DNA of 64,000 nt from Pantoea deleyi (lineage in GTDB: Bacteria > Pseudomonadota > Gammaproteobacteria > Enterobacterales > Enterobacteriaceae): assembly GCF_022647325.1 (NCBI RefSeq), contig NZ_CP071406.1, positions 94,641-158,640 of the forward strand, written 5' to 3'. Position 1 is the stretch's first letter, and each line of letters opens with the position of its first letter. Positions 1-12,906 of the stretch are shown in pieces. Under the pieces are notes generated by a model. The model was not told the origin of the DNA. It searched no databases and worked only from the letters and a program-made list of their open reading frames with translations. The position numbers were made by a program, and so were the translations under genes.

Positions 1-671
1 CCGGCTCCGCCTCTGCGGTTGTTAACACCACGCAAAGCCGACTGGTCTTCGATGAAAACAGTGAGGTGCAATCGCTGACGGTGGTGAACTCCCACAGCGC
101 ACCGGCGCTGGTGCAAATCTGGACCGATGACAGCGATCCACTGAGTCCGCCGGATCGCATAAGTACGCCGCTGGTCGTCGTCCCTCCCCTGTTCAGGCTG
201 GACCCGGCTGAATCGCGCACCCTGCGCGTGATGCTGCTTTCACGCAAAGATATGCCCCAGGATCGGGAACGATTGTACTGGCTGAATATTTACCAGATTC
301 CACCGACGCCCCAGCCACAGGCCGCGCAGGAGAAGAAAGTCATTTTTCCGCTTCGTATCCGACTGAAGGTTTTTATACGACCCGCAGGGGTTAAAGCCCC
401 GGAAGAGGAAATCGGCAAGAAGCTGAAGTTTACGCTTAAAGCACTCAACGCGCAGAGCAGAGAACTCTGTGTACAAAATCCGACTCCCTATTATATGAAT
501 CTCGGGAGTCTCAGCCTGGGTAAGGAAATGCTGACATCAGAGATGATTGCACCCTTCTCTTCCAGCACCGTTGCCCTGAAAAAAAAGAGCGACAGCCGCA
601 TATTAACGTGGTCTGTCATTGACGATTATGGCACACAGAAATCCTATAAAAGAGAGCTGAGCTGCCCGTGA
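1..671 (+). CDS. Fimbrial periplasmic chaperone (PapD-like), 5' end missing
   Basis: The reading frame is open from the left edge, so the start codon and signal peptide lie outside the window; a GTG at 66 is internal. The visible part begins near the mature N-terminus, with the alternating hydrophobic G1 strand region (TQSRLVFDENSE) and then the pili-chaperone signatures VQIWTDD, PPLFRLDP and LYWLNIYQIPP. PapD-type chaperones bind pilin subunits in the periplasm by donor-strand complementation and hand them to an outer-membrane usher. The final third matches the C-terminal Ig domain (NPTPYYMNLGSL). The stop overlaps the next start (GTGA), so the two genes are probably co-transcribed. The usher and pilin genes would be to the left. 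Confidence 0.88.
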   Translation, partial: GSASAVVNTTQSRLVFDENSEVQSLTVVNSHSAPALVQIWTDDSDPLSPPDRISTPLVVVPPLFRLDPAESRTLRVMLLSRKDMPQDRERLYWLNIYQIPPTPQPQAAQEKKVIFPLRIRLKVFIRPAGVKAPEEEIGKKLKFTLKALNAQSRELCVQNPTPYYMNLGSLSLGKEMLTSEMIAPFSSSTVALKKKSDSRILTWSVIDDYGTQKSYKRELSCP

Positions 672-1321
672 AAACTGATACGCTCAAAACGATAAGTATG
701 ACATATTTCCACAGGTACCATATGTCCTACGATTTAATCGCTTCATTCATCCAGCATGAGATGAATATTCAAACCATTACCCTGAAACACTTTCCCGGCC
801 TGGAGGATCTTTTAACTGCCATCGAAGAAAACAGCATTGACATCATTATTTTTAACTCCTCATGTTTATTTGATGGGTCGTTCCGCGAAAAAGAGATCCG
901 GAGAGTGCTGGACGCATCGTGCGGTAACAAACATATCATCACCATTTTTTTTGCTCAGAATATGAAATCGGCGCTGCTGAAAAAAATGCTCGATGCGGGC
1001 GTCAATATTGTGGTCAGTCTGCAGGACAGACCGCAGGAGCTGATTAAAGCACTGGCAGAGAAAATGACCACCTCAGACGAAAAGACCTATATTTCTCAGT
1101 CTGTCTGTGAAAATCTGCAGCAGGAGTGTACTGAACTGACACCTAAAGAGTGGGAGGTGATTAACCTTATTCGGGAGGGATATTCGCTGTCAGAAATTGC
1201 CTCTAAAAAATGCCGTGCCATGAGCACTATTTCAACACAAAAAAGAAACGCAATGAATAAACTTCATCTGCGAAATGAAAACGAATTATTGCTTTTCCTG
1301 CATCAGAACGAATTCTTTTAA
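668..1321 (+). CDS. LuxR-family regulator with degenerate receiver-like domain
   Basis: 217 residues with a GTG start inside the stop of the chaperone gene. The C-terminus (about residues 155-215) is a LuxR/FixJ helix-turn-helix with LTPKEWEVINLIREGYS at its start and a recognition region around STISTQKRNAMNKLH. The first about 130 residues have the alternating pattern of a receiver domain, but where the phospho-acceptor Asp is expected (IDIIIFNSS) there is Asn/Ser. Classical phosphorelay control is therefore doubtful. It ends a fimbrial operon and is followed by the microcin export operon, so either could be its target; the sequence does not decide. Confidence 0.8.
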   Translation: MKTDTLKTISMTYFHRYHMSYDLIASFIQHEMNIQTITLKHFPGLEDLLTAIEENSIDIIIFNSSCLFDGSFREKEIRRVLDASCGNKHIITIFFAQNMKSALLKKMLDAGVNIVVSLQDRPQELIKALAEKMTTSDEKTYISQSVCENLQQECTELTPKEWEVINLIREGYSLSEIASKKCRAMSTISTQKRNAMNKLHLRNENELLLFLHQNEFF

Positions 1322-1345
1322 TTTTATATTATTATCTGGAAATTC

Positions 1346-2665
1346 ATGTTTATAAAATTCATCATGCCACTGGCAGGAGGACTCCTGCTGTCAACCCATG
1401 CCTGCGCACTGTCGCTGCAGGAATCGCTGATAGCGGCCAATAGCTATAATGCCGAAATTAAGGCTGCCCGAAGCGCTCATGACGCCGAGGGACAGAAAAA
1501 ATATCAGGGCTTTGCCGGGCTGTTACCCGCGATCTCGCTTGACGGATCATGGAGTCAAAGCGATCAGCCCGATGCCGCCTACTCTGCGGGGGTCACGCGC
1601 CATAACTACAGCGTCAATCTGTCACAACCCCTGTTTGACCTGGCAAAATATGCAACCTGGCGCAGAACCGTTGTGGCCGGTGACTTAGCCGATGTGAATT
1701 TGCTGATTGCTCAGCAAAAACTGATCGGCGACGTGACGAACGCTTTTTACAGTGTGGTTTATCAGCGCAGTGTCCTTAACACAAAGCAGCGGATCCTCAC
1801 CGCGTTCAGCGCCCGGCTGAAGCAGACACAGAAAGCGCTGGACGTCGGCGATGGCACCCACCTCGATGTAGCAGAAGCGCAGGCTAATTATGATAAAGCC
1901 GTCGCCGATGTGCTGGCGGCTGAAAATGATGTAAACGATGCCAGCCTCTATTTCCATCAGTTAACCGGCAGAGATCCCCAGGCTATTTCGGACAGCACGC
2001 TTCGCTGCGTGCGTTTTCAGGAAAAGATTAGGCCTGAACACGTAAAACGCACCGCCGCAGCCAATAATCTTGACGTGCTGGCCGCTATCGAAAGACGAAA
2101 ATCCAGCGAGGCTGACATAGTCACTGCGACATCCGCGCATTTGCCAGTGGTGACCTTTCAGGCTGGCTACGGCAAAAACTGGAGTCGCGCCGAAAACGGA
2201 AATTATCTCGATACTCTGTTTGGCACCACATCCAAAACGGATAACACACAAATCAGTATCAATGTTTCAATTCCCCTCTTTGCCGGAGGCGGCCAGATTT
2301 CGCAGAGTCTGGAAGCCGCTCATCGCTATGAACAGAATAAAGACCAGGTTATCGATGCCCGCCGCAAAGCCGAACAGCAGGCCATTCAGGCAGCGTCCGG
2401 CGTTCAGAACAGCCAGACACAGATTAAAGCCTACGAACGCGCCATTCGTTCGGCGAATAAACGGCTGACGGCTACCCGTTATGGTCGCGAGATCGGCCAG
2501 CGCACGCTGATTGATGAGTTCAATGCCGAAAAAGATTACTTCCAGGCTATACAGGATCTGGCCCAGGCGCAGAACATCCTGATTCAGTCGATTGTGAAAT
2601 TAAAAACAGCCACCGGCTCGCTCGATTACGCCGCGATGAAAATTTTTAACTGTGGTACGGCCTAA
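1346..2665 (+). CDS. TolC-family outer-membrane channel of a type I secretion system
   Basis: 439 residues. A signal peptide (hydrophobic stretch to THACALS) is followed by SLQESLIAANSYNAEIKAAR, the usual start of mature TolC-like proteins. Two similar halves carry the alpha-barrel pattern, including LSQPLFDLAKYATWRR and SIPLFAGGGQISQS. The family forms trimeric outer-membrane ducts that dock with an adaptor and an inner-membrane pump. Here it is first in a row with HlyD-like and peptidase-ABC genes 15-25 bp apart, so it is the dedicated exit duct for the microcin encoded downstream. Confidence 0.9.
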   Translation: MFIKFIMPLAGGLLLSTHACALSLQESLIAANSYNAEIKAARSAHDAEGQKKYQGFAGLLPAISLDGSWSQSDQPDAAYSAGVTRHNYSVNLSQPLFDLAKYATWRRTVVAGDLADVNLLIAQQKLIGDVTNAFYSVVYQRSVLNTKQRILTAFSARLKQTQKALDVGDGTHLDVAEAQANYDKAVADVLAAENDVNDASLYFHQLTGRDPQAISDSTLRCVRFQEKIRPEHVKRTAAANNLDVLAAIERRKSSEADIVTATSAHLPVVTFQAGYGKNWSRAENGNYLDTLFGTTSKTDNTQISINVSIPLFAGGGQISQSLEAAHRYEQNKDQVIDARRKAEQQAIQAASGVQNSQTQIKAYERAIRSANKRLTATRYGREIGQRTLIDEFNAEKDYFQAIQDLAQAQNILIQSIVKLKTATGSLDYAAMKIFNCGTA

Positions 2666-2680
2666 TCGGGAATATTACGC

Positions 2681-3940
2681 ATGAATAACGACTTATTTCG
2701 TCAGGAATCACTGGATGCAAAGAAGACCAAAGTATTGGGTTCCGTTGCACTCTATTGTCCGCCCTTCCGCTGGATGATTATTACTTTGGTCTGCCTGCTG
2801 GTTGCCGTCCTTATCGCCTTTTGCCTGTTTGGCAGTTACACCAAACGGGAAACCGCCCAGGGTGTACTGGTGCCGGAGAACGGCATGATGAATATCACCG
2901 CGATGAGCGCCGGCACGGTTATTTCCCTTCCCGTTCGTGAAGGTGAGAGCCTGCAGAAGAACAGCCGGATCGCGATCGTTTCTTCGGAGATCTCCACCCG
3001 CTATGGTCAGACCCGCGAGGCGATTGCTGCCCAGCTGGAGTTCCGGAAGGCGGGGCTGAGTAGCCAGCTGGACAATCTGGCCCAGCTCAACCGTGAAACG
3101 CTGAACGCGTTGCAGGAAAAAGTCACTCTGCTTGGCCAGCAGGCGAAAGAGCTGGACACCCTATACCGTCAGCGCACACAGCAGATCGAACTGTCAAAAA
3201 CCCAGCATCGCAAGATGAACGCGATGCGCCGGGAGGGCTACGCCTCAAATACCCAGGTAGAGCAGCTGCAGAACGATCTGCTTGATGCCCGCGTACGCCT
3301 GCAGGACGTTGCCCGTCAGCGCATTGATGTCCGGCAGCAACTGGCTCAGGCGCGACAGCAGTTACGCGAACAGCCTATCAGCTACGACAGGCAGAAGAGT
3401 GAACTGCAGCAAAAACTCTCAGAGATTACGCAGTCGATCGTTGAGAACGAATCCCATCGCTCAATCGAACTGCGCGCCCCCGAAAAAGGCACCGTCAGTG
3501 CCGTTCTGGTTAAGCAGGGACAGGTCGTCAGTGCGGGCCAGACGCTCGCGACGGTGCTGCCGGACAATGTTCGTCTGCAGGCACGCATCATGCTCAGCAG
3601 CCGCGCGATCGGTTTTATCCGGCCCGGCCAGCGTGTGGTGTTGCGCTATCAGTCCTTTCCCTGGCAGAAGTTTGGACAGCAGTACGGAACGGTGCTGGAA
3701 ATCTCGAAATCCGCGCTTTCCCCGCAGGAGGTGGCCACCATCACTGGCGACAACCAGGTTAAGGAGGCGATGTATCAGGTGAAAGTCACGCTGGATAAGC
3801 AGACCGTGCAGGCCTATGGCAGACAGAGCAGCCTCCGTCCCGGAAGCGGACTTGAAGCCGACTTCATTGTCGATAAGCGCCACATCTACGAATGGGTTCT
3901 TGAGCCGCTGAATGCCCTTGGCAAGATGACTTCACTCTAA
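2681..3940 (+). CDS. HlyD/CvaA-type periplasmic adaptor
   Basis: 419 residues. A cytoplasmic N-tail is followed by one TM helix (about residues 31-51), a biotinyl-lipoyl-like half-motif (GTVISLPVREGESLQ), a long coiled coil (about 105-250) and the second half-motif (APEKGTVSAVLVKQGQVVSAGQTLATVLP). The beta-barrel region (GQRVVLRYQSFPWQKFG) is close in pattern to CvaA and LcnD-type bacteriocin adaptors. The protein bridges the inner-membrane exporter and the TolC-like duct. It lies 15 bp after the TolC-like gene and 25 bp before the transporter. Confidence 0.92.
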   Translation: MNNDLFRQESLDAKKTKVLGSVALYCPPFRWMIITLVCLLVAVLIAFCLFGSYTKRETAQGVLVPENGMMNITAMSAGTVISLPVREGESLQKNSRIAIVSSEISTRYGQTREAIAAQLEFRKAGLSSQLDNLAQLNRETLNALQEKVTLLGQQAKELDTLYRQRTQQIELSKTQHRKMNAMRREGYASNTQVEQLQNDLLDARVRLQDVARQRIDVRQQLAQARQQLREQPISYDRQKSELQQKLSEITQSIVENESHRSIELRAPEKGTVSAVLVKQGQVVSAGQTLATVLPDNVRLQARIMLSSRAIGFIRPGQRVVLRYQSFPWQKFGQQYGTVLEISKSALSPQEVATITGDNQVKEAMYQVKVTLDKQTVQAYGRQSSLRPGSGLEADFIVDKRHIYEWVLEPLNALGKMTSL

Positions 3941-3965
3941 ATTTCTCTACTTAATCAGGTTTATC

Positions 3966-6128
3966 ATGGATTTATTTCACAAACTTAATCTGTCCTTTCG
4001 TCAGAAGCTGCCTGTTTTACGCCAGACGCAGGCCGCGGAGTGCGGCCTGACCTGTATCGGCATGATTGCCGGATTTTATGGTCACCATATTGATATGGTT
4101 TCGCTGCGCCAGCGGTTCCCCACTTCCCTGAAAGGCAGCACGCTGGCGAATGTCATGTCATTCGCGCAGAACCTGGGCCTGGGCTGCCGCGCTGTCAGGC
4201 TGGAGCTGGAAGAGCTTGATAAGCTGAATACGCCCTGTGTGCTGCACTGGGATATGAATCATTTCGTGGTGCTTAAGGGCGTCGCCAGAAACAAACTGAT
4301 TATCCACGATCCGGCGCGCGGAGTGCGCAAAGTCCCCATGGATGAGGTTTCAGCTTCGTTTACCGGCGTGGCGCTGGAACTCTATCCGGCCTCAACCTTT
4401 GAGAAGAAGGATGAAAAGAAATCCATCTCCATGCTCAGCCTGATACGGAATGTCTCCGGGTTAGGGTCGGCCTTTATGCAGGTAGCCCTGCTCTCGCTGG
4501 CGCTGGAATTCTTCGGCATCATTACACCGTTTTATATGCAGTGGGTGATCGACCAGGTGCTGGTATCGGCGGATCGCGATTTACTGACGCTGCTCGGTGT
4601 CGCGTTTGTCTGCATCACGCTGTTTCAGAATCTGATCTCAGCGCTGCGCAGCTGGGTCAGCACCTGGTTCTCCAGCCTGCTGAGCGTGCAGTGGTCATCC
4701 AATCTTTGTGCGCATCTGCTGGGTCTTCCGCTCAACTATTTTGAGGATCGCCACGTCGGGGACATTCTTTCGCGCTTTGGCTCCATCAGTAATATTCAGA
4801 GCACGCTCACTGGGCGCTTTATATCGTCCATTTTTGATGGCGTGATGGCCATCGTGACGCTGGCCATGATTTTTACCTACAACGTGACGCTGACCTTTGT
4901 GGTGATCGCTCTGTTCATATTGTATGCCCTGATACGCTGGATCTCATTTGAACCCTTTCGTCAGGCCAATGAGGATCAGCTGATGGCGTCGGCAGTTGTG
5001 CAGTCGCAACTGCTGGAATCTATCCGCGGCGTACAGGCGATAAAACTGAATAACAAGCAGGATCTGCGCGTCTCGACCTATACCAATGAGACGGTGGAAT
5101 CGACCAACAAAGGGATCACCATCCAGAAACTGTCGATTGGTTTCAGCACATTGCAGGGCACGATTTCGGGCGTCGGCAAAATCATTCTTATCTGGCTGGC
5201 AGCGGTGCAGGTGCTGGATGGCAACTTTACCAGCGGTATGCTGGTGGCATTTATCTCCTTCTCCGATCAGTTCATCTCGCGCTCTGCCGGGCTGATCAAC
5301 GCCCTTATCGAATTCAAAATGCTTCGCTTACACGGAGAACGTCTGTCCGACATTGTCCTGACTGAGAAAGAGCAGAACATGGAAAGCCATGTCGAATTGG
5401 CGGAACAGTCAGGGCCTGTAGGTCTCGATATCAGCGACCTCTCCTTCCGCTACTCCGCCACCGACGAAGAGATCTTTTCCGGTTTCAACCTGAGTATTGA
5501 GGCCGGAGAATCTGTCGCCATCATTGGCCCATCCGGGCAGGGAAAAACCACGCTGGCAAAACTGATGCTGGGTCTTCTGAAGCCTGAGGCGGGCGTCATC
5601 AGCGTGGATGGCATCGACCATATTAAGCTGGGCATGACCTGCTACAGAGATCTGGTCGGCAGCGTAATGCAGAGCGATATGATGTTTGCCGGTTCCATCA
5701 TGGATAACATCAGCTTCTTCGATACCAGCCTCGACAGGAATCAGGTCGAGAGAGCGGCCCGCATCGCCCAGATTCATGACGACATTATTGCGATGCCGAT
5801 GGGCTATAACAGCATGGTCGGTGACATGGGTTCGTCGCTCTCGGGCGGACAGGTTCAGCGCGTTATTCTGGCCCGTGCGCTTTATCGCCAGCCACGGCTG
5901 CTCATCCTTGACGAGGCGACCAGCCATCTGGATGTGGCCAGAGAGAGCGCCATTAATGATGCCATCAGGCAGATGAGTATGACGCGCGTCATCATTGCAC
6001 ATCGTCCGGAGACGATACTAAGCGCAGATCGGATCATTCACATCCACCGCCACGGCGTAAAAGAGATATCCAAAACGGACTTTGTGGCACTAATTAACTC
6101 TTCTCAGGTTCAACCATCAGCCAGCTAA
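3966..6128 (+). CDS. Peptidase-containing ABC transporter (C39), CvaB-like bacteriocin exporter
   Basis: 720 residues, normal for the PCAT family. The N-terminal C39 cysteine protease has catalytic Cys26 (AAECGLTC), His99 (NHFVVL) and Asp115 (HDPARG), with oxyanion Gln at 22. It cuts double-glycine-type leaders as the substrate is exported. A six-helix membrane domain follows (about 165-440). The nucleotide-binding domain has Walker A GPSGQGKTT (about 520), signature LSGGQ, Walker B LLILDEAT and the switch His (IIAHR). All catalytic residues are present, so the transporter should be active. The evident substrate is the precursor at 6786-7118, which has a leader of the matching kind. Confidence 0.95.
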   Translation: MDLFHKLNLSFRQKLPVLRQTQAAECGLTCIGMIAGFYGHHIDMVSLRQRFPTSLKGSTLANVMSFAQNLGLGCRAVRLELEELDKLNTPCVLHWDMNHFVVLKGVARNKLIIHDPARGVRKVPMDEVSASFTGVALELYPASTFEKKDEKKSISMLSLIRNVSGLGSAFMQVALLSLALEFFGIITPFYMQWVIDQVLVSADRDLLTLLGVAFVCITLFQNLISALRSWVSTWFSSLLSVQWSSNLCAHLLGLPLNYFEDRHVGDILSRFGSISNIQSTLTGRFISSIFDGVMAIVTLAMIFTYNVTLTFVVIALFILYALIRWISFEPFRQANEDQLMASAVVQSQLLESIRGVQAIKLNNKQDLRVSTYTNETVESTNKGITIQKLSIGFSTLQGTISGVGKIILIWLAAVQVLDGNFTSGMLVAFISFSDQFISRSAGLINALIEFKMLRLHGERLSDIVLTEKEQNMESHVELAEQSGPVGLDISDLSFRYSATDEEIFSGFNLSIEAGESVAIIGPSGQGKTTLAKLMLGLLKPEAGVISVDGIDHIKLGMTCYRDLVGSVMQSDMMFAGSIMDNISFFDTSLDRNQVERAARIAQIHDDIIAMPMGYNSMVGDMGSSLSGGQVQRVILARALYRQPRLLILDEATSHLDVARESAINDAIRQMSMTRVIIAHRPETILSADRIIHIHRHGVKEISKTDFVALINSSQVQPSAS

Positions 6129-6174
6129 GACGGGCCGCACTGCGCCTGTCTGACCATTACATCAAGGAGCCAGT

Positions 6175-6612
6175 ATGAATAACAGCTTAATCTGCGTGGA
6201 AGGCACCCTCCGTTTTGACGAGGAAATCAAAACGCAGACAATTAACATGATCATGTTTAAGCATGGGCAGCAGATTACCGTCAACCGGGACACACTTCCG
6301 GCCGGCAGCACATTTTTCGGCCATATTTCACAACAGATCGCGAATGCCGAAAAGATTCTCAATAATTTCAGCCTCGTCAAAATGGATGAAGTCAAAGACG
6401 GGACCTTTTTTACAGATACCCTACAGACCATCTATACTTTCTCACCCAGCCCGGTCACTGATAATCGTATCTGGCAGGTCACCTGCTCCTGTCTTATTTC
6501 AGCCAATGAGATCATTAACTTCGGGTCGATGTATCCGGACGAGACCTCAATGAAAAATGAAATGCACAGGTTAGAACACTGTGTAAAAAACTTTTCGCCA
6601 AAAATAAGTTAA
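6175..6612 (+). CDS. DUF1795/Eag-like protein, possible microcin chaperone
   Basis: 145 residues with a strong ribosome site (AAGGAG) before the ATG. No signal peptide or TM helix, so cytoplasmic. The order of elements (LRFDEEIKTQTINMI, then ITVNRDTLPAGSTFF, then a helix QIANAEKILNNFSLV, then strands ending in a short helix) resembles the DUF1795 fold used by Eag chaperones, which shield hydrophobic helices of type VI secretion effectors. It sits between the exporter and the hydrophobic microcin gene, so a chaperone role for that peptide is attractive. An immunity role cannot be excluded. Family assignment is by eye and function is inferred. Confidence 0.6.
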   Translation: MNNSLICVEGTLRFDEEIKTQTINMIMFKHGQQITVNRDTLPAGSTFFGHISQQIANAEKILNNFSLVKMDEVKDGTFFTDTLQTIYTFSPSPVTDNRIWQVTCSCLISANEIINFGSMYPDETSMKNEMHRLEHCVKNFSPKIS

Positions 6613-6675
6613 TTAATTTAACATATAATCGTAAAGGAGATTAAATTAAATCATTCAACGCCACCATTGCTCTAA

Positions 6676-6695
6676 AAATAGAAATGGTTCTATTT
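6676..6695 (+). repeat. Small hairpin ahead of the microcin gene
   Basis: An 8-bp perfect inverted repeat (AAATAGAA and TTCTATTT) with a 4-base loop in the 170-bp AT-rich leader between the Eag-like gene and the microcin gene. It has no T-tract in the coding direction. It could adjust message stability between the two genes or be part of a promoter region. Confidence 0.4.
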
Positions 6696-6785
6696 CAGCT
6701 CATTCACGTTAAATGCATAATTAACGCCGTCAGTTAATAACAGAAACATTAACTGACTCCGATAATTAATTTAAGGGAATATAAA

Positions 6786-7118
6786 GTGCGTGATTTAAAT
6801 ATGATGGAAATTGAAGCGGTATCAGGGGCTGGCTTCTGGAGCGCGTTTAACAGTGCAATCCTCGGTGCAGTGGGTGCCGGAAGCGCCGGTGCAATCATCG
6901 GCGGTATGCATGGTGGTGACGGCGGTGGCATTCTGGGTGTCGGAGCAATCGGTCAGCTGGTCGGTATGCTGGGTGGCGGCCTGATCGGGGTGGTGGCCGG
7001 CTCCGTCGGTGGCTGGATTGTAGGCTGGAGTGATCCCGCAACCGTCATTGCCCTGGTCACGCAGTTCTTCAGCAACGCCTCTAGCGGTCTTTTCCATAAC
7101 GGTCCGGCGGCTAAGTAA
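6786..7118 (+). CDS. Class II microcin precursor with double-glycine-type leader
   Basis: 110 residues, GTG start, ribosome site AAGGGA upstream. The leader MRDLNMMEIEAVSGA matches the colicin V-type pattern (MR.L...EI..VSG then G/A), so cleavage is expected after residue 15. The mature peptide of about 95 residues is glycine- and alanine-rich, with GxxxG-type spacing and two hydrophobic stretches around GGMHGGDGGG, typical of membrane-active microcins. It has no Cys and no serine-rich C-terminus of the siderophore type. It is the last gene of the export cluster and is followed by a terminator. No small membrane protein that would be a standard immunity gene is recognisable nearby. Confidence 0.85.
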   Translation: MRDLNMMEIEAVSGAGFWSAFNSAILGAVGAGSAGAIIGGMHGGDGGGILGVGAIGQLVGMLGGGLIGVVAGSVGGWIVGWSDPATVIALVTQFFSNASSGLFHNGPAAK

Positions 7119-7147
7119 TCTGAGCAGATTGATAACGTAACGGGATC

Positions 7148-7178
7148 AAAGGGGTGCTGGTAAAGCTCCCCTTTTTTT
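7148..7178 (+). terminator. Rho-independent terminator of the microcin operon
   Basis: AAAGGGG and CCCCTTT arms with the loop TGCTGGTAAAGCT (itself partly paired), then a run of T, 30 bp after the microcin stop. Confidence 0.85.
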
Positions 7179-7843
7179 AATGGTTTATGATGCCCGGACG
7201 CTGTCGACAGGCTGAAGAACGCGGATTGAAAGAGCCGGTCTTCACTTTCTCGGTTTTCCTCTTAAACGAAACATCTGCGGCCAGAACAGGCAGATGAGAG
7301 AGGTGAAAATCTGTCGATTCTGGCCAGTACTCAGGAGGCTTCACACGCTTAAAACCAGAGGATAGGACCGGGACAGGCCAGAACTCACTTTTATGATTCA
7401 GGCATTATTCAATTAACGTCCCGCACTCTTAGCGCGTCCGGAATCAGCGATGTTGATAGTCTGAATATCGTCAAAATGACAACTCATTTTTTTCGTCTCT
7501 CTCGGGTTTCAGGCTCGATTGATGCAGGCGCGGCAAGAACAGTGAATGAGCAGATCGGTATCAGTCTCAACAGCATTAATATCATCAGCCTGATTAAAAG
7601 GACGAATATTCTGCCATTCTGTACAGTCAGCAGCGCGATCAGAAAGAAGTTAAATCTGGTAACTGCGATGAAATGATGCTTATTAAAAAAGATCTGTATT
7701 CACTAAATGGGCCTTTCTGCTGCCCGCCACGGGATAAAAGCATTGCCAAATGAGAATAGAATATTAGAAATTTACATCTCTTTAAGATAACTCCAGAACT
7801 ATGAAAAAAGTTAAACTGTTTTCTTTATGCCAGGCACATTCAG
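7179..7843. other. Non-coding gap with no confident gene
   Basis: About 665 bp between the microcin terminator and the next regulator. An open frame at 7476-7676 (66 codons) lacks a good ribosome site and recognisable similarity, so it is not called. The last 100 bp are AT-rich and probably hold the promoter of the regulator at 7844. Confidence 0.5.
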
Positions 7844-8743
7844 ATGCATAACTATTACATCATCAATGGCTTCATTGAGTTTCATCCCGCAACCAGTACA
7901 CTGCGAAACCTTAACGACCCGGAAAAGGTGGTGGTCCTGAACTCTCCTGCAGGTCGCTGTCTGTTGTTGTTAATCAACAGGTATGACACGATCGTGACGC
8001 AGCAGGAGTTTATGGAGATTGTCTGGGAAAAAAATGGCATGCTGGTTTCGCCCAATACTTTCTACCAGAACATTTCAATTCTGCGCAAAGGATTAAGAAA
8101 AGCCGGTCTGTCTGTAGATCCTGTTGTGACGATTCCTCGGGTCGGGCTGACGCTGGCCAATGGCACCGAAATCAGAAAACGCAGCGGCGAAGAATCTGAA
8201 ACTGATAGCCCCGGGAGCGTCGCTTCTGATGGAGAGCAATCTCCTGAAACTGCATTACAGGAGCGAAAGAGCCTGTTACATTCCCCTGAAGCAGTAGAGG
8301 CCGACACGCCCACGCCCCCCACCGAACCGCCACTCCCCGACAGCTCTATAAAAATCCCCCGCTCTGCAATAGCTTACCGAAACGCATCCTGTGTGCTGCT
8401 GTGGACCGCCGGGCTTATAACCATCGCTTTACTGGCCATGACAGTGAATTTTTACAGAAGCAGTGACAATAACCGACACTACTTCAGTAAATATTTTTTT
8501 CTGGCTCACGCTAACGGTTGTCACGTTTTTTTCGACAGTAAAAACACAACGCCGGATACCCGAATCAGGGTGATGAAGCTGGTTGAGCAGCTGGAGAGTT
8601 CCTGCAGCAATTATCCCTGGGTCTACATCACCTACTATTACATGCTGCCCCGGATTTCGGTTATCCGCTGCAACAGGCAGATGGAACAGCCAAATACCTG
8701 TATCTCAGATTACTATTTCAGAGGCCTGGAACAGAGTGATTAA
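7844..8743 (+). CDS. Membrane-anchored winged-helix regulator (CadC/ToxR-like), pair A
   Basis: 299 residues. The N-terminal 110 residues form an OmpR/PhoB-type winged helix (QQEFMEIVWEKNGMLVSPNTFYQNISILRKGL, then TIPRVGLTL). A polar linker rich in Pro, Ser and Glu (about 112-170) leads to one TM helix (about 182-202) and a short periplasmic domain with several Cys. This is the ToxR/CadC plan, in which a membrane-bound protein binds DNA directly. Its stop overlaps the start of a small one-TM protein, as in toxR-toxS. The inducing signal and target genes are unknown; it is a paralogue of the protein at 9799-10620. Confidence 0.82.
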   Translation: MHNYYIINGFIEFHPATSTLRNLNDPEKVVVLNSPAGRCLLLLINRYDTIVTQQEFMEIVWEKNGMLVSPNTFYQNISILRKGLRKAGLSVDPVVTIPRVGLTLANGTEIRKRSGEESETDSPGSVASDGEQSPETALQERKSLLHSPEAVEADTPTPPTEPPLPDSSIKIPRSAIAYRNASCVLLWTAGLITIALLAMTVNFYRSSDNNRHYFSKYFFLAHANGCHVFFDSKNTTPDTRIRVMKLVEQLESSCSNYPWVYITYYYMLPRISVIRCNRQMEQPNTCISDYYFRGLEQSD

Positions 8744-9218
8744 GAAACTCGTGGGGGCGCTGTTATGTGCCATCATCATCTCTGAGAGTCTGTATTTATT
8801 CAATGCGTATCTTCAGCGTGAGCAAATCGATAGCTTTAACTGCACTGCAAACCAGCTCAAACATTACAGCAACGAAACTTATTACCTTACGCTTAATTTC
8901 ATCGTACGCAGCAACTTTGGCCTGGTGCACATAACAGGACATTCCGATAAAAATCCTGAAAAGATCGTGAACCGTAAGATCTCTTTTAAACTGCAGCGTA
9001 ATCGCGATCTCTATTATATGGTTTCGCAAAAAAATATCAGACTGCCGGATGACAACATCAGTGATGAAGAGTTGAGCCTTTATGTTCCGGCTTTTTTTGT
9101 CACTTCAGGCAGTGATATCTATATGCAGATCCTGAAACAGAACAACAGAAACTTTCTCTTTAAGGTGGAATCGATTCCTACCTATGTGTGCAATTCTGAT
9201 AACGGCAAAGGCCACTGA
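8736..9218 (+). CDS. Small one-TM partner of the winged-helix regulator, pair A
   Basis: A GTG start at 8736 overlaps the stop of the regulator by 8 bp; the 160-residue product then begins with a short basic tail and a TM helix (KKLVGALLCAIIISESLYLF). The remainder is periplasmic, beta-rich and has two Cys (FNCTANQL and TYVCNS). The open frame extends further upstream, but that part lies within the regulator gene. By position it is a ToxS-like accessory protein; no family name can be given from sequence alone. Confidence 0.7.
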   Translation: MIKKLVGALLCAIIISESLYLFNAYLQREQIDSFNCTANQLKHYSNETYYLTLNFIVRSNFGLVHITGHSDKNPEKIVNRKISFKLQRNRDLYYMVSQKNIRLPDDNISDEELSLYVPAFFVTSGSDIYMQILKQNNRNFLFKVESIPTYVCNSDNGKGH

Positions 9219-9250
9219 AAGAGCACAGACGCTATTCACATTAAAGAAAG

Positions 9251-9283
9251 AAATCGAGGCCCCGCGCAGTGGCCTCGATTTTT
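9251..9283. terminator. Bidirectional terminator between the two regulator pairs
   Basis: An 11-bp perfect stem (AAATCGAGGCC and GGCCTCGATTT) with T-rich sequence on the right and A-rich on the left, so it can stop transcription from both converging operons. Confidence 0.85.
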
Positions 9284-9310
9284 GCCTTTCTCTGCTCGCC
9301 TGTTATCCGC

Positions 9311-9802
9311 TCAGTAACGCTCACAGGTAAAGAGATAGGAAAGCGGCCCGCTGATGAGGTAGCTCTTATCATCTACTTTTGTGAGATCCAGTTGCAGATA
9401 GGTCGGATCCAGCGTGATTTCTGAAAACAGCAAATTAAATATGGCATCCGGTGTTGTATCGTTGGTTGCGGTCACGATGGTTCTGATTTTATAGCGATAG
9501 GTGTTGCTCTCTATTCTGTTACCACTGCTCAACGCGATGCGCCGGTTAAGTACCGTTACGGCGTCACCGGCCGTCACCTGACCGTTCAGCAGAAGATAAC
9601 CTGAATGCGGGTCGATAAAACGCAGGTCCTGTGAGACATAGAAGTCCAGGCGTTTACCTTCGTGACGGCTGAGGTCATAGCGGCTGAATGCTGAGCAGCG
9701 AAAAGGCAGATCGTTATCCTGACGTTTAAACATCACACCTGCGATAACGGCCACTAACAGGGTCAGTGACAGCGTTATTGTCACAATGACGCTCCGTTTC
9801 AA
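9311..9802 (-). CDS. Small one-TM partner of the winged-helix regulator, pair B
   Basis: 163 residues, TTG start overlapping the stop of the upstream regulator (TTGA), which suggests translational coupling. It has an N-terminal TM helix (IVTITLSLTLLVAVIAGVMF) and a periplasmic region with FRCSAFSRYDLS near the start and FTCERY at the end. The two-Cys placement and the overall plan resemble the pair A partner, though identity is low. Probably a signal-sensing or stabilising partner. Confidence 0.7.
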   Translation of the reverse strand: MKRSVIVTITLSLTLLVAVIAGVMFKRQDNDLPFRCSAFSRYDLSRHEGKRLDFYVSQDLRFIDPHSGYLLLNGQVTAGDAVTVLNRRIALSSGNRIESNTYRYKIRTIVTATNDTTPDAIFNLLFSEITLDPTYLQLDLTKVDDKSYLISGPLSYLFTCERY

Positions 9803-10620
9803 TTCATTCTCCAGTCAAGGTAGTAGAAGTTGTCGCAGGAAATGATGTGGCCATCACTGTTCAGGTTGCAGGCAGAAAGAATGGTTCTGCCATAATTGGT
9901 CGTGTTAAAGGAGGGATTCTTATCAAAATAGATCCGCCTTCCCGGCACGCAGGATTGCTTGTTTTCCCGGAGCATCTGCAGAATCTGTTTATCCAGCGAC
10001 TGCTTCTCAAACACATCCAGGCCCTGGATAATGACGGCCTCGCAGCCTCCGTCCAGTCTGATGGTACTCATCGATGAACGCTTTCCGAAGAGATTATGCG
10101 CAGTGTAGTAGCCATAAGCACCAGCCAGAACAGCCAGCACTACCAGGCCAGACACTACCTGTCTGAAGGAGATCAGAGGCTTTTTGTCCGCCGGGAGGGT
10201 GAGTTCTGGCACATCAACTACATCCTCACGATTAACCCCTTCCTCCGCCTGATCTTCCGTCTGAGCCTCTGAGTCCGCGAGTACAGGAGGAGATTCGCGT
10301 TCTATTTTTATCTCGGTATTTAACCGGATGCCAATCCTGGGAATGGTGATAATCAGATTTTCACAGCCATAGGCTGCCAGCGCCCTGCGCAGAATACTCA
10401 GATACTGATTCAGATTACTGTTTGATCCCCGCAGACCATATTTATCCCAGACCTCAGTCAGCAGAGTCTCACGCGCCAGTATTTCGCCCTGAGAATTCAG
10501 CAGCTGCTCAAACAATCTGCCGGATGAAATGCTCAGGCTCAGCGTCTCCTCAGTGGGAATATGGCTCAGCGTGCAGTCATCGGAGTTGTAAGCAATCTGG
10601 TCATCGATAATGTAAATCAT
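9799..10620 (-). CDS. Membrane-anchored winged-helix regulator (CadC/ToxR-like), pair B
   Basis: 273 residues from the ATG at 10620, where the sequence MIYIIDDQIAYN aligns in position with the start of pair A; the frame is open 90 bp further up but without domain similarity. The winged helix includes LLTEVWDKYGLRGSNSNLNQYLSILRRAL and TIPRIGIRLN. An acidic linker follows, then one TM helix (FRQVVSGLVVLAVLAGAYGYY) and a periplasmic domain with about four Cys. Same architecture and partner arrangement as 7844-9218 but on the opposite strand, facing it. Confidence 0.8.
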   Translation of the reverse strand: MIYIIDDQIAYNSDDCTLSHIPTEETLSLSISSGRLFEQLLNSQGEILARETLLTEVWDKYGLRGSNSNLNQYLSILRRALAAYGCENLIITIPRIGIRLNTEIKIERESPPVLADSEAQTEDQAEEGVNREDVVDVPELTLPADKKPLISFRQVVSGLVVLAVLAGAYGYYTAHNLFGKRSSMSTIRLDGGCEAVIIQGLDVFEKQSLDKQILQMLRENKQSCVPGRRIYFDKNPSFNTTNYGRTILSACNLNSDGHIISCDNFYYLDWRMN

Positions 10621-11065
10621 TAAGAATTCACTGGATTTATGCTCATTTCTCACAGTATAAATCAGCTTATTTAAAGAAGCACCTGGGAGACAATATAAGC
10701 GGAAAGGCATCAGAACCGGGCGTTCAGGCCGGAGAAGCAGCCTGTATTGTTTATTTGAATCAGCGACGACAGTTATGACGCGTTAGCTAAAAAACTGCCG
10801 ATTTAATGACTCATGTGCCTGCCAGAGCGCGCCCCGGTCGTGGCTGATTTATTGCGCAGGTCAGAGATCCCTTCTTTCAACCCTGGGTTCGCCTCATGAT
10901 CAACGGCCCTTTCCGGCTGACGGCCGGGAAGGACCGTTGTCTCAGCCGGCAGAGGAATCCCGAAGAATCTGCACCTTTCCTGACAAAAATGGCCAGCGCC
11001 GCGCAGCCTGACGATTTTTAGCCGCACTACAATTAACCGGGAGAAAATCACCTTCGGGGACATCA
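10621..11065. other. Divergent intergenic region
   Basis: A 445-bp region between the pair B regulator and the sugar kinase. It must hold both promoters. Apart from the hairpin at 10901-10939 no gene or recognised site was seen. Confidence 0.5.
10901..10939. repeat. Long inverted repeat upstream of the sugar kinase
   Basis: Two 17-base arms (starting CAACGG, ending CCGTTG) with one mismatch and one G-U pair around a 5-base loop. No T-run follows, so it is not a typical terminator. It could be an operator or a structured leader RNA of the kinase gene 127 bp downstream. Confidence 0.6.
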
Positions 11066-11962
11066 ATGAAAATTGCAGCTTTCGATATTGGCGGGACTTC
11101 ATTAAAAATGGGTGTTGTGGACGACAGGGGAAACATCCTTGCCAGCGACAGTGCGGATATTTCACACAATGCACGCGACAGAATACTGCAAGACATGCTG
11201 GCCTGGCTGGAAAAGAATCCTGGCTGTGCGGGCATCGCCGTCAGCACGCCCGGTTATGTCGATGCCGACGCCGGATTTATCGCCATGGGCGGCACGATCC
11301 GTGACTTTGACCAGTTTCATCTGAGCCAGTGGCTGACGGAAAAAACGTCGCTGCCTGCCACGGTGGAAAATGATGCACATTGCGCCCTGCTGGCGGAGCA
11401 GTGGCTGGGTAAAGCCACAAAGCTGAATGATTTTCTGATGTTAACGATTGGTACCGGATTAGGCGGCGCGGCGTTCTGTAACGGCGCACTGATCCGCGGA
11501 GGCCGGAATCGGGCGGGTGAGTTTGGCTGTCTGCTCACTTCGCGTCCCACCAGCAGCGATATCGAACGCCACACCATGAGCCAGAGCTGTACCATGACGG
11601 CACTGCGAAAAAACTACAGTCAGCTGCAAGGGCTGGCCATCGATGACGTCACGGGTAAAGACGTTTTCGATGCGTATGAGCGAAATGAAGACGCTGCCCG
11701 GCAGAGTGTCGCTCAGTTCTACCAGGATCTTGCAGCCTGCTTATACAACCTGTTCAGCGTCTTTGATCCGCAGATGATTTTTATCGGGGGAGGAATTACA
11801 GCCCGCGAGCCATTTCTGGCGGAGCTGGGTGCGGAGCTGGCAAAATATGATCTGGATATTCACATCGATGCCGCCACCTATGGCAATGACTCCGGCATGC
11901 TGGGGGCAACCTGGAATTTTCTGCAGCGCCAGTCGCCCGCCGAAACACTAAAAAATGGCTGA
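11066..11962 (+). CDS. ROK-family sugar kinase
   Basis: 298 residues. The N-terminal ATP-binding motif is DIGGTSLKMGVV; ENDAHCALLAEQWLG and TIGTGLGGAAF mark the sugar-binding and second phosphate regions; GGGITARE lies near the end. The zinc-binding Cys motif of bacterial repressors and glucokinases (CGxxGCxE) is not present: at the corresponding place the sequence is GEFGCLLTSRP. The product phosphorylates a hexose or a beta-glucoside in the cytoplasm. The opening resembles beta-glucoside kinase BglK, but no transporter or glycosidase is next to it, so the substrate is uncertain. Confidence 0.85.
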   Translation: MKIAAFDIGGTSLKMGVVDDRGNILASDSADISHNARDRILQDMLAWLEKNPGCAGIAVSTPGYVDADAGFIAMGGTIRDFDQFHLSQWLTEKTSLPATVENDAHCALLAEQWLGKATKLNDFLMLTIGTGLGGAAFCNGALIRGGRNRAGEFGCLLTSRPTSSDIERHTMSQSCTMTALRKNYSQLQGLAIDDVTGKDVFDAYERNEDAARQSVAQFYQDLAACLYNLFSVFDPQMIFIGGGITAREPFLAELGAELAKYDLDIHIDAATYGNDSGMLGATWNFLQRQSPAETLKNG

Positions 11963-11997
11963 AATACCGATATCAGTATAACCAGCCCGGTTCAGGC

Positions 11998-12906
11998 TCA
12001 GTGCCGGAGTTTTGCCAGCTCGTCTGACGTCAGGCCTGTCATCTCCATAATGGTCTTATGCTCCAGGCCATTCTGTAACATGGCGCGCGCGATTTTCAGG
12101 GTGGCTTCGCGTTCACCTTCCGCGCGCCCTATATCAACGCCTTTCTGCTCAAGCTGCTGTGCAATGGTCATCAGTGCATCTCCGTGTTGTGGCACCCGCT
12201 GTGCCAGTTCGCGAACGAAAGCTTCATAGTCAGCTGACTCACCAGCCTGCAGTAAATAGTTTATCAGCGTCAATACCTGGGGTGAAGAGAGATAATCAGC
12301 CATCAGCAAAGAGGAGAGACGGTCTGTCAGCGTTGCCATGTCACGTTGACGAATATGTTTCTGTAACAGCGTCAGCGCCGCCATACTGCGATGCGTCATG
12401 ATCTCGTCATCCGGGATTACCGAAACGTCAACCAGAGGAAACGCGCCGCTATAAAGCGCCTCCGCCACATGGGGGTCCTCGAACTCGTCAAACCAGCGGG
12501 TTGACCAGGGATAGGGTGAGCGCTTTCCGGCATAGAACAAGACCGGGATCACCAGAGGCAGCCGCTTATGCCCTGCATCAAGATGACGCTGCATCGCCGC
12601 AACCGCATAACGCAGCAACCTGAAGGCCATATGCCTGTCCGGTGTGGACTGATGCTCAATCAGAACGTGGATATACCCGTCACCGTTCAGGGTTCTCAGG
12701 CTGTAAAGGATGTCACTGTAGTACTGACGCAGATCCTCTTCCACAAACGAGCCTGACTCAAGCTTCAGGGTGTTAAGGTCGCAGATCGCGAGCAGATTCT
12801 CCGGAAGATGGAGTTGCATAAAATCCCGCGCAATATCGGGATGCGTCAGAAATTGCCGGAAGGTGGCATCATGAGGTGTTGGATTATTTTTCTTTTCCAT
12901 GGTCAT
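11998..12906 (-). CDS. Rpn/YhgA-family recombination-promoting nuclease
   Basis: 302 residues with a good ribosome site (AAAGGA). The N-terminus HDATFRQFLTHPDIARDFMQLHLP and the core DILYSL...YIHVLIEHQS are the hallmark of the Rpn (transposase_31) family, with PD-(D/E)xK nuclease residues Asp and Glu-x-Gln. These proteins cleave DNA and raise RecA-independent recombination in E. coli. The C-terminal about 70 residues contain the variable tail (EGEREATLKIARAMLQNGLEHKTI) seen in family members. It is a mobile accessory gene, often multicopy in enterobacteria. It stands alone here. Confidence 0.88.
   Translation of the reverse strand: MTMEKKNNPTPHDATFRQFLTHPDIARDFMQLHLPENLLAICDLNTLKLESGSFVEEDLRQYYSDILYSLRTLNGDGYIHVLIEHQSTPDRHMAFRLLRYAVAAMQRHLDAGHKRLPLVIPVLFYAGKRSPYPWSTRWFDEFEDPHVAEALYSGAFPLVDVSVIPDDEIMTHRSMAALTLLQKHIRQRDMATLTDRLSSLLMADYLSSPQVLTLINYLLQAGESADYEAFVRELAQRVPQHGDALMTIAQQLEQKGVDIGRAEGEREATLKIARAMLQNGLEHKTIMEMTGLTSDELAKLRH

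Follow-up and report, generated by a model that had tools for sequence, protein, structure and literature searches.

The 64,000-nucleotide stretch of Pantoea deleyi DNA analysed here (referred to below as the window) contains an operon for type I export of a class II microcin-like peptide, in which a DUF1795 (PF08786) gene at positions 6175-6612 is located between the gene of a peptidase-containing ATP-binding cassette exporter (PCAT) with a C39 domain and that of a glycine-rich precursor (6786-7118). We consider it probable that the DUF1795 gene encodes an Eag-type chaperone that moved from type VI effector operons into this type I (TolC-HlyD-PCAT) microcin export operon. The assignment is based on the protein family, the predicted fold, the position in the operon, the conservation with the exporter, and the retention of several residues through which Eags contact helices; from these we infer the chaperone action itself. 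An earlier note, made from the sequence alone, had placed a C39 exporter, a DUF1795-like gene and a glycine-zipper microcin side by side. This arrangement is confirmed by the Pfam matches, the leader, the GxxxG count and its recurrence in other genomes.

The protein encoded by 6175-6612 matches the PF08786 DcrB profile with 38.6 bits (cut-off 27.2) over residues 9-107, and its single-chain predicted model has a predicted local distance difference test score (pLDDT) of 90. In agreement with the fold proposed in the earlier note, its nearest solved relatives are Eag chaperones, both by fold search and by profile search. A search of solved structures with the single sequence gave no matches, and hence the relationship to Eags is visible only via profile or fold. 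The protein lacks a hydrophobic N-terminal stretch, which makes the cytosolic location that had also been proposed likely. The periplasmic lipoprotein DcrB (6e8a) belongs to the same Pfam family; an identity of this type was rejected because the window's protein has no signal-like N-terminus and the fold match is weaker.

According to passages of PMC7773334, EagT6 grips helices via I22, I24, V39, A62, L66 and others, and forms hydrogen bonds to them through S37, S41, Q58 and Q102; Q58A and L66A are described in passages of PMC12881460 as reducing binding. In the profile alignment, counted by eye, I22, I24, S41, Q58, A62 and L66 of EagT6 correspond to I23, M25, N37, Q54, A58 and L62 of the window's protein. 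The Q58 site is Gln in all 21 microcin-linked members (each genome being counted once, here and in the trees) and in 37 of the 44 other relatives. The S41 site is Ser, Asn or Thr in 21/21 microcin-linked members, and the palm is mostly hydrophobic. Judged from these alignments, the Eag residues that contact transmembrane helices appear to be kept in part.

The precursor has a double-glycine-type leader ending in AVSGA. The part that follows it (95 amino acids, 8.9 kDa, 27% Gly) contains 12 GxxxG motifs, compared with a mean of 6.7 in shuffled sequences (p 0.006). A double-glycine leader, a PCAT and a membrane fusion protein in the operon, and a short precursor, by which class II microcins are recognized, are all present, as are the glycine-zipper precursor and type I exporter of Cdz-like bacteriocins. 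The precursor remained below the Pfam cut-offs for MccV (11.7 versus 27 bits) and DUF5862 (19.3 versus 33.3 bits). In a search with an alignment of eight precursors, in which the 8000 best candidates were scored, at least 13 of at least 87 relatives are named 'colicin V synthesis protein' by NCBI. Comparison of the precursor profile with the PDB gave nothing meaningful (one match, E 0.15), and the predicted model is poor (pLDDT 49, three helices at low confidence) and too weak to use.

Further precursors were observed. A second copy, 48% identical, is present on the window's contig (G000:C2:64792-65106, locus L037), with no exporter gene within the 3.3 kb read. In genome G044 a stop breaks the precursor that adjoins the DUF1795 gene (L012, about 12037-12168), and another copy on that contig has an open frame. 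A shorter second double-glycine peptide stands beside the main precursor in loci L055 (12673-12960), L060 (12779-13117) and L065 (12732-12995), an arrangement as in two-peptide bacteriocins, and such a peptide also follows the precursor in L150-L153; in most of them the mature part starts with a sequence like SLTSxILDFF.

The pair of exporter and DUF1795 gene was sought in other genomes and was found to be conserved. Precursor matches were obtained in 14 of 99 related genomes, all of one genus. Twelve of these 14 have an exporter of this C39 type, and in all twelve the DUF1795 gene lies directly 3' of it (in G044 the pair spans a contig end). G026 and G055, which make up the 14, lack both such an exporter and the DUF1795 gene, and G057 has an extra weak C39 match (28.8 bits) without a DUF1795 gene. 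When genome contigs were scanned with an exporter alignment, 30 loci were obtained, 25 of which contain close exporter relatives; the five weak ones (L068-L072) were excluded from every count. An intact DUF1795 gene is located 3' of the exporter in eight of the 25 loci (L043-L047, L049, L051 and L063) and at the end of a fimbrial operon in three (L055, L056 and L058); it is a stub in L059 and absent from 13. The 12-genome and 25-locus sets share two genomes (G020, G031, G102 and G103 are L043, L044, L055 and L063, respectively). Over 18 loci the gap between exporter and DUF1795 gene ranges from -8 to +63 bp, always on the same strand, and in six the start overlaps the stop. We chose as controls 93 further genomes of this order, drawn from 213 with a C39 match and selected for a long C39 exporter (the match lying in a frame of about 650 amino acids or longer; own genome and G033 excluded). 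A PF08786 gene was found in 16 of them, none near a C39 match among the matches listed, and therefore the pair is restricted, as far as sampled, to one exporter subfamily of Enterobacterales. No p-value was used for 12/12 versus 0/93 because the twelve genomes form one genus; the gene order is not due to chance, since it recurs in many genomes. The presence of the DUF1795 gene requires at least four changes on the exporter tree, and thus the gene has been gained or lost repeatedly.

The association with the microcin itself is looser. Of the 11 loci that carry an intact DUF1795 gene, 9 have a local glycine-rich double-glycine precursor, as do 6 of the 14 others, which is a trend only (2x2 count over 25 loci, p 0.099). 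The two exceptions among the former are L044, which has no adjacent microcin and whose genome (G031) contains precursors elsewhere, one of them on the same contig, and L046, which stops at a contig edge. Eight further loci of the same genus contain, in this order, the precursor, fimbrial genes, LuxR, TolC, HlyD, exporter and DUF1795 gene. Distances between DUF1795 proteins over 18 loci correlate best with those of the exporter (rho 0.88), followed by HlyD (0.83) and the precursor (0.61). In addition, several precursors are present in the window's and related genomes, against a single exporter of this type and a single such DUF1795 gene; in the window's genome the precursor-like matches number four, one of them containing internal stops. 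Because the distances track the exporter more than the precursor and there are several precursors per gene, a helper of the export route fits better than a cognate immunity protein. In Erwinia persicina (L048 and L050) the microcin and the DUF1795 gene are both missing; this was not taken as evidence, since the two lie side by side and could be lost in a single deletion.

Several observations weigh against a chaperone gripping its client exactly as Eags do, or serving a single microcin. The window's clade has Thr or Ser at the Q102 site (where 9/9 members of the other large microcin-linked clade have Gln), the V39 site is polar (Thr or Asn) in microcin-linked members, and the L66 site varies among Phe, Leu, Met, Val, Ile, Cys and Thr. 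Moreover, among 15 related loci where a microcin is present locally, 6 have no DUF1795 gene. Together with the linkage to the exporter, the lack of an adjacent microcin in G031 and the several precursors per gene, this last count means that the earlier reading as an Eag-type chaperone was right in kind and too narrow in having the protein dedicated to the neighbouring microcin.

The close tracking of the PCAT, the position behind it in 12 of 12 same-genus genomes and the closing of the fimbrial operon in L055, L056 and L058 would also be expected if the protein aided not the microcin but the exporter or another operon product, such as membrane segments of PCAT or HlyD, or fimbrial parts. We regard this as unlikely. 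PapD-type chaperones fold fimbrial subunits in the periplasm, which a protein without a signal-like N-terminus would not reach; related PCATs manage without it (14 of 25 loci have no intact gene), and known Eags bind secreted effectors (passages of PMC7773334). A function as a cytosolic immunity protein neutralising the microcin in the producer is improbable: the gene tracks the exporter and not any given microcin, the extra precursors in its own and related genomes come without a second copy, its nearest relatives are chaperones, and the glycine-zipper system of Caulobacter is described as using an inner-membrane immunity protein (passages of PMC5380434). That a stray type VI secretion system (T6SS) Eag gene landed in the operon and is functionless there is hardly credible. 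Family members do often adjoin T6SS effectors, also in the window's own genome (L019), but here the frame is open and has a Shine-Dalgarno-like site, its place is kept down to about 61% exporter identity (L017/L063), the Gln at the Q58 site is invariant and the pair occurs in 12/12 genomes of the genus found to have the exporter.

For the favoured Eag-type chaperone we propose the following mode of action. It would act as a cytosolic dimer, domain-swapped as expected of an Eag, that forms a claw around the GxxxG-rich helices of glycine-zipper precursors, with a grip like that of Eags on effector transmembrane segments. Eags hold GxxxG/A helices through knob-in-hole contacts (passages of PMC7773334), and from the resemblance of the precursor's glycine-zipper helices to these we infer such a grip. 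The held precursor would neither aggregate nor insert into the producer's inner membrane, its double-glycine leader would stay free for the C39 domain, which would cut it, and binding to the exporter, or translocation, would free the precursor from the chaperone. Its clients are probably all precursors that pass through this exporter, and not one cognate microcin.

In a 64-row tree two groups of microcin-linked genes (taken together with an orphan clade) are seen, one of which lies within other relatives, but a single clade is not rejected (approximately unbiased test, p-AU 0.478). In a 69-row tree both groups fall among other relatives, the window's clade being placed elsewhere among Eags. 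The larger tree was made without L088, L101 and L104, and the smaller one further without L058, L107, L083, L094 and the lipoprotein. Two origins cannot be taken as proven and were rejected as such: the best 64-row tree needs two changes, but the test above does not reject one clade, and the 69-row tree places the window's clade differently. The prePAAR motif is AARxxDxxxH, and we scanned with our own pattern modelled on it. A gene with a prePAAR-like motif lies directly 3' of 35 of the 47 other relatives, which thus look like T6SS Eags; the other 12 have no effector gene alongside and include L101, a microcin-linked duplicate. The window's own genome also has an Eag adjoining a PAAR/RHS protein (L019). 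These findings suggest that the DUF1795 gene most likely derives from T6SS Eags, once or twice. More tentatively, Eags may have been recruited, perhaps twice, from type VI secretion to a fimbria-linked type I weapon, an island of fimbriae, exporter, claw chaperone and microcins in which membrane-active peptides would be stored for fimbria-held cells. A sister clade of DUF1795 genes (L015 9832-10380, L073 and L074) has no microcin or exporter alongside; the L015 gene adjoins a 331-amino acid membrane protein, an acyltransferase (PF00698) and a LolA-like protein (PF17131).

The protein resembles T6SS Eags (SciW, EagT6; PF08786/DUF1795) in family, size and predicted fold, in several of the helix-contact residues and in its probable cytosolic location, and its gene likewise adjoins that of a secreted, probably membrane-active protein. 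In contrast to T6SS Eags, no PAAR, VgrG or Rhs gene is present among the neighbours examined, which are instead a type I exporter and a 110-amino acid double-glycine precursor without prePAAR motif. We therefore class it as Eag-like and not as a T6SS Eag, whose neighbour would be a prePAAR/transmembrane effector. With operons of class II microcins (MccV and relatives) the locus shares the C39 exporter, HlyD-type protein, double-glycine leader and short precursor; it differs in having its own TolC, a LuxR regulator, a fimbrial operon and the DUF1795 gene, and in having no recognised immunity gene. Type I secretion and glycine-zipper precursor(s) are shared with the Cdz bacteriocins of Caulobacter (passages of PMC5380434). 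These also place genes of Tafi fimbriae close to many Cdz-like clusters, with Erwinia among the genera that have them, whereas the fimbriae here are of the chaperone-usher type. No three-helix CdzI-like immunity gene was recognised at the locus, no sequence search aimed at CdzI having been made.

The words chaperone and fimbria are absent from the main texts of PMC9746304, PMC11494933 and PMC13174018, and chaperone and DUF from that of PMC5380434. In the open-access papers searched (most subscription papers being outside this coverage) none combined microcin with DUF1795 or DcrB. Among the papers listed by a wider search, two combine DUF1795, DcrB, bacteriocin and Eag: PMC12472927 appears from its passages to have the T6SS as subject, and PMC13129497 has a T6SS title. 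The present locus suggests a new setting, type I secretion, for a known family. A chaperone of known structure and contact residues makes it directly testable how class II microcins, strongly hydrophobic as they are, are kept in solution and from doing harm until they are exported. Microcin candidates of Pantoea, Erwinia and Xanthomonas tested through the MccV exporter gave weak inhibition, for which poor secretion is among the several possible causes named by the authors (passages of PMC13174018); the proposed chaperone may bear on this for the Pantoea and Erwinia candidates. If the proposal is true, Eag function extends beyond type VI secretion. On the more tentative reading of recruitment to a fimbria-linked weapon, Eag claws would be a general storage solution for secreted transmembrane helices, whatever the secretion machine.

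Table 1. Features of the microcin export operon and its neighbourhood (window positions).
Feature	Position	Strand	Basis
PapD-type fimbrial chaperone, last in chaperone-usher fimbrial operon	66..671	+	PapD_N 112.9 bits, PapD_C 52.3
LuxR/RcsB-like regulator	668..1321	+	GerE 32.1 bits; 4 bp overlap with PapD stop
TolC-type outer membrane channel	1346..2665	+	OEP 164.7 bits; TIGR01844 241.3 bits, cut-off 225
HlyD-type membrane fusion protein	2681..3940	+	HlyD_3 63.2 bits
Peptidase-containing ABC exporter (PCAT)	3966..6128	+	Peptidase_C39 118.7 bits, ABC_membrane 118.7, ABC_tran 97.7
Shine-Dalgarno AAGGAG 5' of DUF1795 gene	6164..6169	+	sequence; similar site in relatives
Eag-like DUF1795 (PF08786) protein, proposed cytosolic chaperone	6175..6612	+	Pfam, fold and profile searches
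Class II microcin-like precursor, 110 amino acids, GTG start	6786..7118	+	leader, GxxxG count, named relatives
Double-glycine-type leader, 15 codons, MRDLNMMEIEAVSGA	6786..6830	+	sequence; leader kept in precursor alignment
CadC-like membrane regulator, conserved neighbour	7844..8743	+	Trans_reg_C 28.4 bits; found in relatives
Small partner open reading frame of CadC-like gene, start uncertain	8583..9218	+	conserved in relatives; no Pfam match
FidL-like protein	9311..9802	-	homologue annotated FidL-like in NZ_CP110474; conserved in relatives
Second CadC-like regulator	9799..10710	-	Trans_reg_C 38.9 bits

The window is part of contig C2 (158,640 bases) of a 4.68 Mb genome in four contigs, and the operon is plasmid-borne. 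The end of the fimbrial operon is followed by LuxR, TolC, HlyD, C39 exporter, DUF1795 gene and precursor, all on the + strand (Table 1). The true start of the PapD gene lies just 5' of the window, and the upstream fimbrial genes are visible in locus L021. The nearest named relatives are Pantoea, and a search of plasmid records by protein matched a single record, Pantoea anthophila NZ_CP110474. No relative turned up in the viral contigs searched, an Rfam scan of window positions 1-12000 gave no match, and a promoter scan found 2 sites versus 1.0 expected. Between 6128 and 7844 no immunity gene candidate was recognised; a 66-amino acid open reading frame at 7476-7676 has no Pfam match.

Regulators of the CadC/FidL type come after the precursor gene. 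Two pairs of a CadC-like and a small protein (7844-9218 and 9311-10710, one of them FidL-like) flank the operon in many relatives, and are possibly its control system. A PapD-type gene is present in the fetched flanks of 21 of the 25 loci of the exporter subfamily (two as fragments) and of all eight further same-genus loci. Islands of fimbriae and microcin occur in three gene orders (window 66-7118 with L021; L043-L067; L148-L155), and a fimbria-aided, contact-dependent weapon is possible. Finally, a 196-amino acid protein that weakly matches HTH_46 (25.6 bits, below the cut-off of 29.3) is encoded in L151 (1250-1837) and relatives, and in L021 (3110-3700); its gene and a LuxR-type gene are divergent and located 5' of the precursor or fimbrial genes.
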